In this document: positions 1 through 2,382 of the stretch, piece by piece
Position numbering within the stretch: the stretch's first letter is position 1
Layout of the letters: each line of letters opens with the position of its first letter
Assembly: GCA_030609125.1 (NCBI GenBank)
Contig: JAUWCW010000124.1
Location: 1-6,251 of the forward strand
Length of the DNA stretch: 6,251 nucleotides
Source of the DNA: JAUWCW01 sp030609125 [NCBI: Candidatus Rokuibacteriota bacterium]
GTDB lineage: Bacteria > JAUVQV01
Direction of reading: 5' to 3'
Program-made: the position numbers and the translations under genes
Notes under the pieces: model-generated
What the model saw: only the letters and a program-made list of their open reading frames with translations
Told to the model about the DNA's origin: nothing
Database searches by the model: none

Positions 1-75
1 GTGTCGGTGGAGGTGATGGGCTATCTGATCTTCGTGAGAGCTCTGCCGGTCCTTCCGGAGCCGGAGCGTGCGTAA
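1..75 (+). CDS. hybB: C-terminal end of a probable HybB/NrfD-type membrane subunit of the hydrogenase (partial)
   Basis: Frame 1 is open from the window edge to a TAA at 73-75 and encodes 24 residues that include the stretch EVMGYLIFVRALPVLPEPE. A hydrophobic helix end followed by a short proline-rich polar tail fits the C-terminus of HybB/NrfD-family integral membrane proteins, which pass electrons from the periplasmic hydrogenase to the quinone pool. The position 21 bases before the large subunit gene also fits, because Geobacter-type hyb operons are, as I recall, ordered small subunit, HybA, HybB, HybL, HybP. Only the tail is visible, so the family call rests on context plus this short segment. 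It could instead be the end of another membrane subunit, such as a cytochrome b. Confidence 0.5.
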   Translation: MSVEVMGYLIFVRALPVLPEPERA

Positions 76-96: not shown

Positions 97-1809
97 ATGG
101 CGAAAAGAGTTGTAATTGACCCCGTTACCAGGATTGAGGGCCACCTGCGGATCGAGTGTGAGGTCGACGGCGGGAAGGTCACCAACGCCTGGTCTTCCGG
201 GCAGATGTGGCGCGGTGTCGAGCTGATCCTCAAGGGAAGGGACCCGAGAGACGCCTGGGCGTTCACCCAGCGTTTCTGCGGCGTCTGAACGACCGTTCAC
301 GCACTGGCTTCAGTGCGTTCGGTTGAAAATGCCCTGGGGATGGAGATCCCCCTCAACGCGCAGTACATCCGCAACCTCATTATGGGCGCCCACGCCACCC
401 ACGATCACATCGTCCACTTCTATCACCTGGCCGCTCTTGACTGGGTCGACATCGTCAGCGCCATCAGCGCCGACGTCGGCGAGACGGTCAAACTGGCCAA
501 CAAGATCGAGGACTGGAGGGGCAACACGCGGCAGGAGCTCCAGGGAGCCAAGGACCGCCTGACGACCTTCATCCAGTCCGGGCAACTCGGCATTTACAGC
601 AGCGGCTACTGGGGCCACCCGGCAATGAAGCTTCCACCGGAGGTGAACCTGCTGGCGGCGACCCACTACCTGCAGGCGCTGCACTACCAGCGGCAGATCA
701 ACAAGGTGGTGGCCATTCTCGGGAGCAAGACGCCCCACATCCAGACTGTCCACGTCGGCGGCGTGACGAACCCCATCAACCCCGACGCTCCGGACGTTCT
801 GAACATGGAGCGCCTCTACCTGGTCAAGACCCTCCTCGACGAGGCCGGCGAGTTCGTGAAGAAGGCGATGCTGCCCGACACGGCGGCGGTGGGGGCCCTC
901 TACGCCGACTGGACCGGGTACGGCAAGGGGGTGACGAACTACCTCTCGGCTCCCGACATGCCGATGGATTCCAAGGGCACCGAGTTCCACCTGCCCGGCG
1001 GTTACATCCCCGGCGGGGACGTGAGCAAGTTTACGCCCATCAAGAGCTTCCAGGACCCCTTCTTCCGTGACAACGTGGCGGAAGGGATCAAGAATTCCTG
1101 GTATGACGGTGACTGGACGCGCCACCCCTGGGAAGGGGACACGGTCCCGAACTTCAAGGACTGGAAGGAAAGCGTCACGGAGAACGAGAAGTACTCCTGG
1201 GTGAAGTCCCCCACCTTCCAGGGCAAGCCGGCCCAGGTCGGACCCCTGGCCAACGTCCTGTGCATGTTCGCCGCCGGCCACGAGGGAGCGGCGAAATACG
1301 TCACCCAGACGCTGGACACCGTGAGCGCCCTGGCCGGGACGAAGGTGGGAGTCGGTGCGCTGCACTCCACCATCGGCCGGATCGCGGCCCGTTCGATCCG
1401 GTGCGCCATCCTGAACGACACGATGCAGGACCAGTACAACGCCCTGCTGGAGAACCTCGGCAAGGGAGACCTGACAACCTTCAACCCGCCGACCTTCCCG
1501 AAGGGAGAGCAGCAGGGCTTCGGTTTTCACGAGGCGCCCCGCGGCATCCTTTCCCACTGGGTGGTCATCAAGGACGGGAAGATCAAGAACTACCAGGCCG
1601 TGGTTCCCTCCACCTGGAACGCCTGCCCGCGCAACGGCGACGACGCCATGGGGCCCTACGAGGCGGCGCTTATCGGCACGCCCGTGGCGGACGAGCACAA
1701 ACCCCTGGAGGTCCTCAGGACCATCCACTCCTTCGACCCCTGCCTGGCCTGCGCCGTCCACCTCGTCGACAAGCAGCACCGTGAGATCGTCAAGGTCAAG
1801 GTCCTTTAG
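97..1809 (+). CDS. hybL: [NiFe]-hydrogenase large subunit with predicted selenocysteine at position 64 (UGA read-through)
   Basis: Catalytic large subunit of a group 1-type uptake hydrogenase (H2 to 2 H+ and 2 e-) carrying the Ni-Fe site. The ATG at 97 has a good GGGAGG at 82-87. The frame is open to a TAG at 1807-1809 except for one UGA at 286-288, so the full product is 570 residues, the usual length for the family. Family blocks in order are RIEGHLRIE near residues 12-20, the L1 motif R59-F-C61-G-V-U64-T-T-V-H68, APRG at 480-483 followed by H487-W488, [10 protein letters not shown] at 503-512, and the C-terminal D547-P-C549-L-A-C552-A-V-H555. The 15 residues after His555 are the expected tail removed by the HybP protease. 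Homology continues without a break across the UGA, with [12 protein letters not shown] directly after it, so the two open pieces are one gene. C61, U64, C549 and C552 would be the four Ni ligands. The lack of an export signal is normal, since the large subunit is co-exported with the small subunit. A simple nonsense mutation or sequencing error is the alternative, but the SECIS-like hairpin argues against it. Confidence 0.93.
286..288 (+). other. In-frame UGA, predicted selenocysteine codon (Sec64 of HybL)
   Basis: The UGA lies in the hybL frame and replaces the second cysteine of the RxCGxCxxxH motif that is nearly invariant in [NiFe] hydrogenases. Cysteine to selenocysteine is the substitution expected of a selenoprotein. 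The codon is followed at 290-325 by a stem-loop with the spacing bacterial SECIS elements need. The position corresponds to the N-terminal bridging Ni-Fe ligand (Cys68 in Desulfovibrio gigas numbering), not to the C-terminal terminal ligand that is Sec in the classical [NiFeSe] enzymes. Decoding would need SelA, SelB, SelC and SelD encoded elsewhere. Confidence 0.85.
290..325 (+). promoter_or_regulatory. Bacterial SECIS-like mRNA hairpin downstream of the UGA
   Basis: An 8-bp perfect upper stem pairs 299-306 with 311-318 around a GCUU tetraloop (307-310). A lower stem pairs 290-295 with 320-325 (six pairs, one of them G-U). The two are separated by an asymmetric internal loop, UUC (296-298) opposite U (319). 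The loop starts 18 nucleotides after the UGA, and its first base is G. Both agree with the known bacterial SECIS pattern of a small apical loop about 16-37 nt downstream with a G in the first two loop positions, bound by SelB. The unpaired U residues in the stem recall the bulged U of the E. coli fdhF element. The codons in this stretch (GCA, GCT, TCA, CGT, GTT, GAA, AAT) depart from the GC-ending codons used elsewhere in the gene, as expected if RNA structure constrains them. Confidence 0.82.
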
Positions 1810-1827: not shown

Positions 1828-1861
1828 GGGCGCTCACCGCATGGAGGTGCGGTGAGCGCCC
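1828..1861 (+). promoter_or_regulatory. Perfect 13-bp hairpin enclosing the hybP ribosome binding site
   Basis: Bases 1828-1840 are exactly complementary to 1849-1861, with an 8-base loop (1841-1848, ATGGAGGT). The Shine-Dalgarno GGAGG (1843-1847) lies in the loop and the GTG start of hybP (1852-1854) lies inside the 3' arm. The stem is very GC-rich and there is no following T-run, so it is not an intrinsic terminator. It could limit translation initiation of the protease, stabilise the 3' end of the upstream hydrogenase mRNA, or both. The pairing is read directly from the sequence and its function is inferred. Confidence 0.6.
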
Positions 1862-2382
1862 TCGTCCTGGGCGTCGGCAACGTCCTGCTCCTGGACGAGG
1901 GCATCGGCATCCGGGCCATCGAGGAGCTGCAGCGCCGGTACGACTTTCCGGACGAGGTGCACCTGCTCGACGGAGGCACCTCCGGGATCGAGTTGCTGCG
2001 CTTCTTCGACGGGGTCGACCACCTCATCATCATCGACGCCATCAGTGCCGGCAAGCCGCCGGGGACGGTGATGCGGGTCGAGGGGGATGACGTGCCGGCC
2101 ACCTTCGAGACAAGGATCACGCCCCACCAGCTGGGGCTCTCCGACCTGCTCGCCACCGCCAAACTGACCGACGTCATGCCGGGGCGCCTGGTGCTTTTCG
2201 GCGTCGAGCCCAAGACGATGGAGTCGGGCCTCGGCTTCTCCCCGGAGGTGGAGGGGGCCCTCGAGAAACTGATGGGACACGTCGTCGGAGAGCTGAGACA
2301 GTTGGGCTACACGGTCGGGAAGTGCACCGAGGAGCGCCCCTGCCGGAGCCTGTTCTGGGGCGAGGGAGCGGCCGGGGACTGA
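1852..2382 (+). CDS. hybP: Hydrogenase maturation endopeptidase HybP (HybD/HyaD family)
   Basis: Cytoplasmic nickel-sensing protease that cuts the C-terminal tail from the large subunit after the last histidine of DPCxxCxxH, once the metal site is complete. The 176-residue product has the family signature GVGNVLLLDEG at residues 7-17. The three metal-binding residues are present as Glu16, Asp62 (in IIIDAISAG) and His92 (in TPHQ), matching Glu16, Asp62 and His93 of E. coli HybD. The GTG at 1852 is chosen because it places LVLGVGN at the normal distance from the N-terminus and has GGAGG at 1843-1847; the upstream ATG at 1841 is out of frame and hits a stop at once. It follows hybL by 42 bases and very probably processes that protein. 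The region after about residue 155 is a cysteine-containing tail (KCTEERPCRS) of unclear role. Confidence 0.92.
   Translation: MSALVLGVGNVLLLDEGIGIRAIEELQRRYDFPDEVHLLDGGTSGIELLRFFDGVDHLIIIDAISAGKPPGTVMRVEGDDVPATFETRITPHQLGLSDLLATAKLTDVMPGRLVLFGVEPKTMESGLGFSPEVEGALEKLMGHVVGELRQLGYTVGKCTEERPCRSLFWGEGAAGD

Follow-up and report, generated by a model that had tools for sequence, protein, structure and literature searches.

The window analysed here, a stretch of 6,251 nucleotides, contains a gene for the large subunit of a [NiFe] hydrogenase of the Hyd-2 type. Very probably, SelA, SelB, SelD and tRNA-Sec insert selenocysteine (Sec) at its UGA-64 with the aid of a hairpin, and residue 64 bridges Ni and Fe. 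The gene likely represents a large class of natural [NiFe] hydrogenases, so far overlooked, whose N-terminal ligands include selenium. About nine or more phyla and candidate phyla would have its CxxU form, in group 1 as well as group 4-like enzymes, and a UxxU form would combine a terminal with a bridging Sec. Between them, the two forms are predicted in well over a hundred microbes, most of them uncultured. We computed the codon position, its conservation, the RNA structure signal and the decoding machinery, and we infer Sec insertion, bridging coordination and functional benefit. The gene and its elements lie as follows:

97–1809, forward strand: hybC-like group 1 [NiFe] hydrogenase large subunit, 570 amino acids with the UGA read through; stop codon TAG at 1807–1809
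271–300, forward strand: N-terminal ligand motif R-F-C61-G-V-U64-T-T-V-H, read from the sequence and aligned with CGVC of Hyd-2
286–288, forward strand: in-frame TGA, codon 64, predicted selenocysteine; in frame with the ATG at 97; TGA also in contig C60 and in the related genome G001
1735–1752, forward strand: C-terminal ligand motif D-P-C549-L-A-C552, both cysteines encoded by TGC
290–325, forward strand: SECIS-like hairpin; RNAfold −21.1 kcal/mol; z −2.4 against synonymous recodings (more stable)
299–306/311–318 and 290–295/320–325, forward strand: upper and lower stems of the hairpin, with loop GCTT at 307–310

A preliminary description of this DNA had noted a UGA at the second cysteine of RxCGxCxxxH with large-subunit sequence on both sides, and the alignments bear this out. 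Nucleotides 271–300 read R-F-C-G-V-U-T-T-V-H, and the TGA at 286–288 is the single interruption of the 97–1809 frame. The read-through protein matches E. coli hydrogenase-2 over residues 1–570 (E 1.6e-224), an alignment that places residue 64 at the second cysteine of CGVC. If UGA-64 is decoded as Sec or Cys, both CxxC ligand motifs are present (C61-x-x-U64 and C549-x-x-C552). The large subunit also contains E14 and the canopy arginine R482 (of EAPRG); passages of a study of Hyd-2 assign roles near the active site to the corresponding Glu and canopy Arg (PMC10430524). Judged by homology and by its score against PF00374 (NiFeSe_Hases; 704.8 bits, cut-off 25.8), the gene is a group 1 [NiFe] hydrogenase large subunit of the Hyd-2 type. 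Thirteen NCBIfam models match the protein, and it reaches the curated cut-off of none. The score against NF007778 (HybC) is 831.1 bits with a cut-off of 969; because this equivalog model covers close HybC proteins only, the name HybC equivalog is barred and membership in group 1 is unaffected. Neither model of [NiFeSe] enzymes reached its cut-off (NF045518, 358.6 versus 780 bits; NF033181, 482.5 versus 600 bits), and codon 549 is TGC; assignment to the classical C-terminal [NiFeSe] type was rejected on these grounds.

The remainder of the window contains the following genes:

1–75, forward strand: 3′ end of a hybB-like membrane subunit (NrfD family), continuing from contig C60 (C60 overlap; PF03916 on the C60 gene)
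1852–2382, forward strand: hydrogenase maturation protease (HycI/HybD family), stop codon TGA; PF01750, 116.2 bits
2448–2765, forward strand: hypC; PF01455, 92.6 bits
2803–3147, forward strand: hypA; PF01155, 103.8 bits
3144–3812, forward strand: hypB; PF02492, 78.1 bits
3871–6132, forward strand: hypF; HypF domains PF22521, PF17788, PF07503, PF01300 and PF00708

Contig C60 of the source genome encodes a small subunit, a ferredoxin-type subunit and an NrfD-type membrane subunit and ends inside the large-subunit gene. Together with the protease and hyp genes of the window, these genes point to a Hyd-2-like operon, and the gene product would be the large subunit of a membrane-linked Hyd-2-type [NiFe] hydrogenase. 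The end of C60 (L043, 4143–4436) overlaps window nucleotides 1–294 with 3 mismatches in 294 bases and also contains the TGA. The mismatches indicate a variant copy or an assembly fork; a fork between near-identical variants is the probable explanation. A search of the source genome (376 contigs, 92% complete) with PF00374 recovered only the window gene and the copy at the end of C60, indicating that a Cys-containing replacement hydrogenase is absent there. The ortholog in the second genome of the phylum that we compared (G001, from another family of the order) has TGA at the matching codon. Two genes that follow in the window end in TGA as an ordinary stop (2380–2382 and 2763–2765), which indicates that the genetic code is not reassigned.

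The source genome encodes the factors for Sec insertion that the preliminary description had proposed to look for (selA, selB, selC and selD). SelA scores 593.4 bits and is followed on the same contig by selB (314.5 bits, with only profile positions 2–399 of 581 matched). The tRNA-Sec scores 67.9 bits with the Rfam model and is also found by ARAGORN, and selD scores 362.8 bits, above the cut-off, with one in-frame TGA. By these matches, the genome has the Sec machinery expected for a selenoprotein, and SelA, SelB, SelD and tRNA-Sec would decode UGA-64 as Sec. Among 50 genomes chosen from the listed UGA-hydrogenase matches described below, SelB was over the cut-off in 44 and was not found over it in 6, as compared with 2 of 14 control genomes. 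As a separate observation, selD has one in-frame TGA in all three genomes inspected, namely the source genome (L046), G001 (L047) and G046 (L048).

The hairpin at 290–325 lies directly downstream of the UGA, as a bacterial SECIS element should, and is a putative SECIS that would aid Sec decoding; an Rfam scan of the window gave no match to a SECIS family. Across homologs, the 36 nucleotides after the UGA fold more stably than synonymous recodings at 105 Sec loci (mean z −1.29) and not at 23 Cys loci (0.00; p 1.5e-6). Such p-values are optimistic, since the loci are related by descent and the Cys controls form a mixed, more distant set, many of them from other hydrogenase groups. A separate run with distinct sequences and other settings gave z values of −1.58 for group 1 (81 sequences), −1.16 for group 4-like (15), −0.97 for the double-Sec set (26) and 0.12 for Cys (23). 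The difference was weak in a longer segment of 57 nucleotides after the UGA (mean z −0.66 for Sec versus −0.01 for Cys). Of 103 Sec loci, 85 form an apical loop 16–30 nucleotides downstream of the UGA, capping a stem of at least 5 pairs, as compared with 5 of 23 Cys loci; two of the 105 Sec loci were too short in sequence for this count. In 73 of 103 and 2 of 23 loci, respectively, a loop so placed has a G within its first two positions. In the remaining 18 of 103 Sec loci, simple folding gave no well-placed hairpin of 5 pairs.

In 26 group 1 loci (23 distinct) that belong to neither the HybC-like nor the UP set, 22 of which have Chloroflexota titles, every cell of a 6-bp stem is paired (100%) and three pairs show compensatory changes; pairing falls to 19–56% when the structure is slid and to 34.8% in Cys homologs. 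The Cys set shows double changes at 5 of 6 pairs of this structure, at low pairing, because it is far more diverse. The structure of the window, placed on a hand-chosen HybC-like subset (34 loci, 32 distinct), is 88.6% paired as compared with 19–42% when slid and 48.4% in Cys homologs; compensatory changes occur at 1 pair in this subset, which is not above the slid versions (0–2). Ten Desulfobacterales-type and five Nitrospirota loci were left out of the subset because their hairpin lies elsewhere. The double-Sec set gave a mixed result, with 75.6% and 87.0% pairing in two registers and double changes at 1 and 0 pairs. The register of the hairpin varies between clades, so that no single fixed hairpin fits every family.

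The preliminary description had also proposed a search for relatives with UGA at the same column, and such relatives proved numerous beyond the G001 ortholog. One scan over 84,980 genomes with the degenerate pattern [QE]R-x-C-G-x-UGA-x3-H returned at least 119 stretches, a lower bound, the pattern having been restricted to CGN for Arg and to Cys at the first ligand. BLAST comparison with either the window protein or that of the group 4-like locus L062 (the same gene as L041 1095–2798) identified at least 103 of these as large subunits of [NiFe] hydrogenase type whose UGA falls at the column of the second N-terminal Cys; 16 of the 119 listed matches failed this comparison and were dropped as chance. 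Among the matches listed, 88 loci are group 1-like and include Nitrospirota, Chloroflexota, Thermodesulfobacteriota, Bacillota, Spirochaetota and Actinomycetota. The other 15 (L062 with 14 others) are group 4-like, NuoCD/HycE-like large subunits with RICGIU, mainly from KSB1 and Chloroflexota, with Calditrichota, Acidobacteriota and further bins. By record titles, the listed CxxU carriers span about nine named phyla or candidate phyla, a tally that leaves out "Myxococcota" and "Pseudomonadota" (from the titles "Deltaproteobacteria" and "Proteobacteria"), and the records are mostly metagenome bins. The C-terminal motif is DPCxxC in all 79 readable loci among the matches listed; of the 103 loci, 24 were unreadable because the stretch ends first (22) or is masked (2). 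The UGA-bearing motif is rare in a broad sample of 386 genomes, of which 56 match the window protein at E ≤1e-60 and three (the source genome, G001 and G312) carry UGA in the N-terminal motif. The method is able to detect the known [NiFeSe] type, as G011:C1 has the C-terminal motif DPUIAC. A candidate for Sec at a ligand in G299:C5 was rejected; the single TGA of its 486-codon frame is the stop right after DPCTACSVH.

In G312, a single-contig genome, UGA occupies both N-terminal Cys codons (L195 1495–3204; QRIUGVUTTVHA). A search of 394 genomes around G312 with a double-UGA pattern gave 84 matches in 83 genomes, and the reversed pattern, used as a control, matched in one genome. Counted by eye from the printed letters, 82 matches in 81 of the 394 genomes read QR-[IF]-U-G-V-U-T-T-V-H. 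We read 31 double-UGA loci (L220 is the place of L195), and matches beyond these come from the pattern. All but L212 and L226 encode large subunits, and the complete frames among them contain DPCMAC or DPCMSC; those two of the 84 matches were dropped as chance. L212 was also the sole match in the 394-genome search to a form with UGA first and Cys second, which leaves that form with a chance hit. SelB was over the cut-off in 76 of 80 double-Sec genomes (80 of the 81 were given).

A quick tree was built by maximum likelihood from 135 group 1-like proteins (27 CC, 81 CU and 27 UU). The motif states require 8 changes on it, and starred branches force 5 or more changes of CU. The UU proteins form one side of a branch, and the window protein groups with G001 among CU proteins of Nitrospirota and Thermodesulfobacteriota. 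The tree omits group 4-like rows, the duplicate L220 and frames with fewer than 240 codons downstream of the UGA, together with L141, L176_CC and L128_CC (dropped at BLAST 1e-40); support is by SH-aLRT only, and L019 and L022 are long branches that meet. On this tree, the CxxU replacement has been gained or lost several times in group 1.

The enzyme is of a known kind. E. coli hydrogenase-2 HybC (PDB 6en9; NF007778) matches the window protein over its full length and shares its ligand motifs, but all four ligands of HybC are Cys, whereas ligand 64 is encoded by UGA in the window. In E. coli, the hyb partners are a small subunit, a ferredoxin subunit, an NrfD-type membrane subunit, a protease and hyp genes, and the window and C60 genes share these partners. 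Residue 64 is the second N-terminal ligand, which we take from the ligand roles in group 1 structures to bridge Ni and Fe. The active site would be Ni(Cys61)(Cys549)(mu-Sec64)(mu-Cys552)Fe(CN)2CO, the bridging coordination by Sec64 being proposed from homology and these roles. The [NiFeSe] hydrogenases of sulfate reducers (HysA; NF045518, NF033181) and the methanogen VhuU/FruA proteins likewise have a [NiFe] site with one Sec ligand. In the HysA and VhuU types, however, Sec is at the first C-terminal Cys, a terminal Ni ligand, a position held in the window by Cys549. The group 4-like RICGIU subunits of KSB1 and Chloroflexota have UGA at the same ligand column as the window, with C-terminal DPCFSC in the 10 that are readable, but belong to a different branch; their nearest NCBIfam model is NuoD-type, and only short stretches resemble the window protein.

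Engineered enzymes offer a further comparison. In the set made from E. coli Hyd-1 by Evans et al. in 2021, the striking change, a marked oxygen effect, is said to have arisen at the C-terminal terminal position (C576U), and the bridging variants were reportedly near native in electrochemistry. The preliminary description had expected selenium at the bridge to change the redox, oxygen and CO behaviour of the site. With the oxygen effect at C576U, a large effect of bridging Sec is not assured, and such a residue need not act like terminal Sec. According to a passage of a later paper, Sec was put at each of the four Ni ligands of Hyd-1 in turn (PMC11212049, citing Evans et al. 2021). That passage suggests that one of the four variants has Sec at the position matching residue 64; the variant is artificial, whereas the window form is natural and has its own RNA signal.

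Characterised [NiFeSe] enzymes had been described beforehand as having Sec in the C-terminal motif, and passages of the literature concur, giving UxxC or a Ni ligand of that class. A 2026 review describes Sec of the hydrogenase alpha subunit as UxxC and [NiFeSe] enzymes as exclusive to sulfate reducers and methanogens (PMC13188914, in the passages available), as does, for their distribution, the available part of a 2023 review (PMC10298544). Similar excerpts place Sec of natural [NiFeSe] enzymes at the terminal position (PMC11212049) and identify C546 of Hyd-2 as the first C-terminal Cys, terminal and near the catalytic Glu (PMC10430524). The accessible portions of the open-licence literature searched contained no mention of Sec at the N-terminal hydrogenase motif (PMC13188914, PMC9961374, PMC11212049, PMC10779653, PMC9723677, PMC5736913, PMC9469722, PMC5113046, PMC6895022, PMC3582634, PMC9312934, PMC10298544, PMC1914089 and PMC10430524), and the terms sought were absent from those of PMC10362691. 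[NiFeSe] hydrogenases have been credited, in passages that do not give the position of Sec, to the Firmicutes Thermacetogenium phaeum and Syntrophaceticus schinkii, so that N-terminal Sec may have been sighted earlier. Within the open-licence literature, the ligand position and the double-Sec form look new.

Other explanations of the UGA have to be weighed against decoding as Sec. One is that the TGA stems from faulty sequencing or assembly, or from a nonsense mutation newly arisen in a decaying gene, and fragmentation of the source genome into 376 contigs lends this idea some weight. It is extremely improbable: the TGA recurs in C60 (with other substitutions), in the family of G001 and at no fewer than 103 other loci, and the frame of 570 codons is otherwise intact and conserved. 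Decoding of the UGA as Cys, Trp or some other residue, by an altered code or a near-cognate tRNA, is highly improbable. Readthrough alone would equally yield a full-length protein, but TGA is a normal stop in neighbouring genes, the source genome has Sec machinery with tRNA-Sec, and the excess of RNA structure after the UGA seen in UGA-bearing homologs is absent in the Cys set. Every UGA selenoprotein depends on selenium supply, and the codon might serve mainly as a regulatory switch giving a truncated product without selenium and the full enzyme with it. We consider this very unlikely, as a switch would not need its UGA at a metal-ligand codon and the PF00374 search of the 92% complete genome revealed no Cys-containing replacement.

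A rival that concerns function only, and agrees with Sec insertion, holds that selenium is nearly neutral at this site and drifts in where the machinery exists. The several Cys/Sec changes on the group 1 tree, five or more of them forced by starred branches, speak for this view, as does the reportedly near-native electrochemistry of Hyd-1 variants engineered at the bridge. Decoding of Sec is costly and inefficient, however, and this costly state has been kept across large clades together with RNA structure. We regard near neutrality as possible but doubtful. If instead Sec64 is of benefit to the enzyme, that benefit would most likely be a more reversible oxidation of the ligand or easier insertion of metal or cofactor, not a new reaction.

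[NiFeSe] hydrogenases are prized for oxygen tolerance and H2 production, an advantage ascribed to selenium at one terminal ligand. If our interpretation is true, natural enzymes with a bridging selenium and with two seleniums would provide an independent test of its role at each position. One carrier, Syntrophomonas zehnderi OL-4 (L100, with the motif QRVCGVUPVGH), is a named strain, and its record bears no metagenome-bin label. Such proteins would be cut short by gene callers that take UGA for a stop, and the usual definition of [NiFeSe] enzymes would then cover only part of them. Annotation may miss or split the hydrogenases of Nitrospirota, Desulfobacterota, Chloroflexota and other anaerobes, with consequences for counts of hydrogen-cycling microbes.

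Two minor observations concern the motif itself. Large subunits of Anaerosomatales/Coriobacteriia on a distant branch (L110 and L145) read QRICGVUPVPHG with a matching UGA, in frames that end with the locus. In the double-Sec set (L195 and L213–L241), the codon before the first UGA is nearly always ATA, the exceptions being G490 and G532; this may reflect a constraint of codon context or RNA structure.
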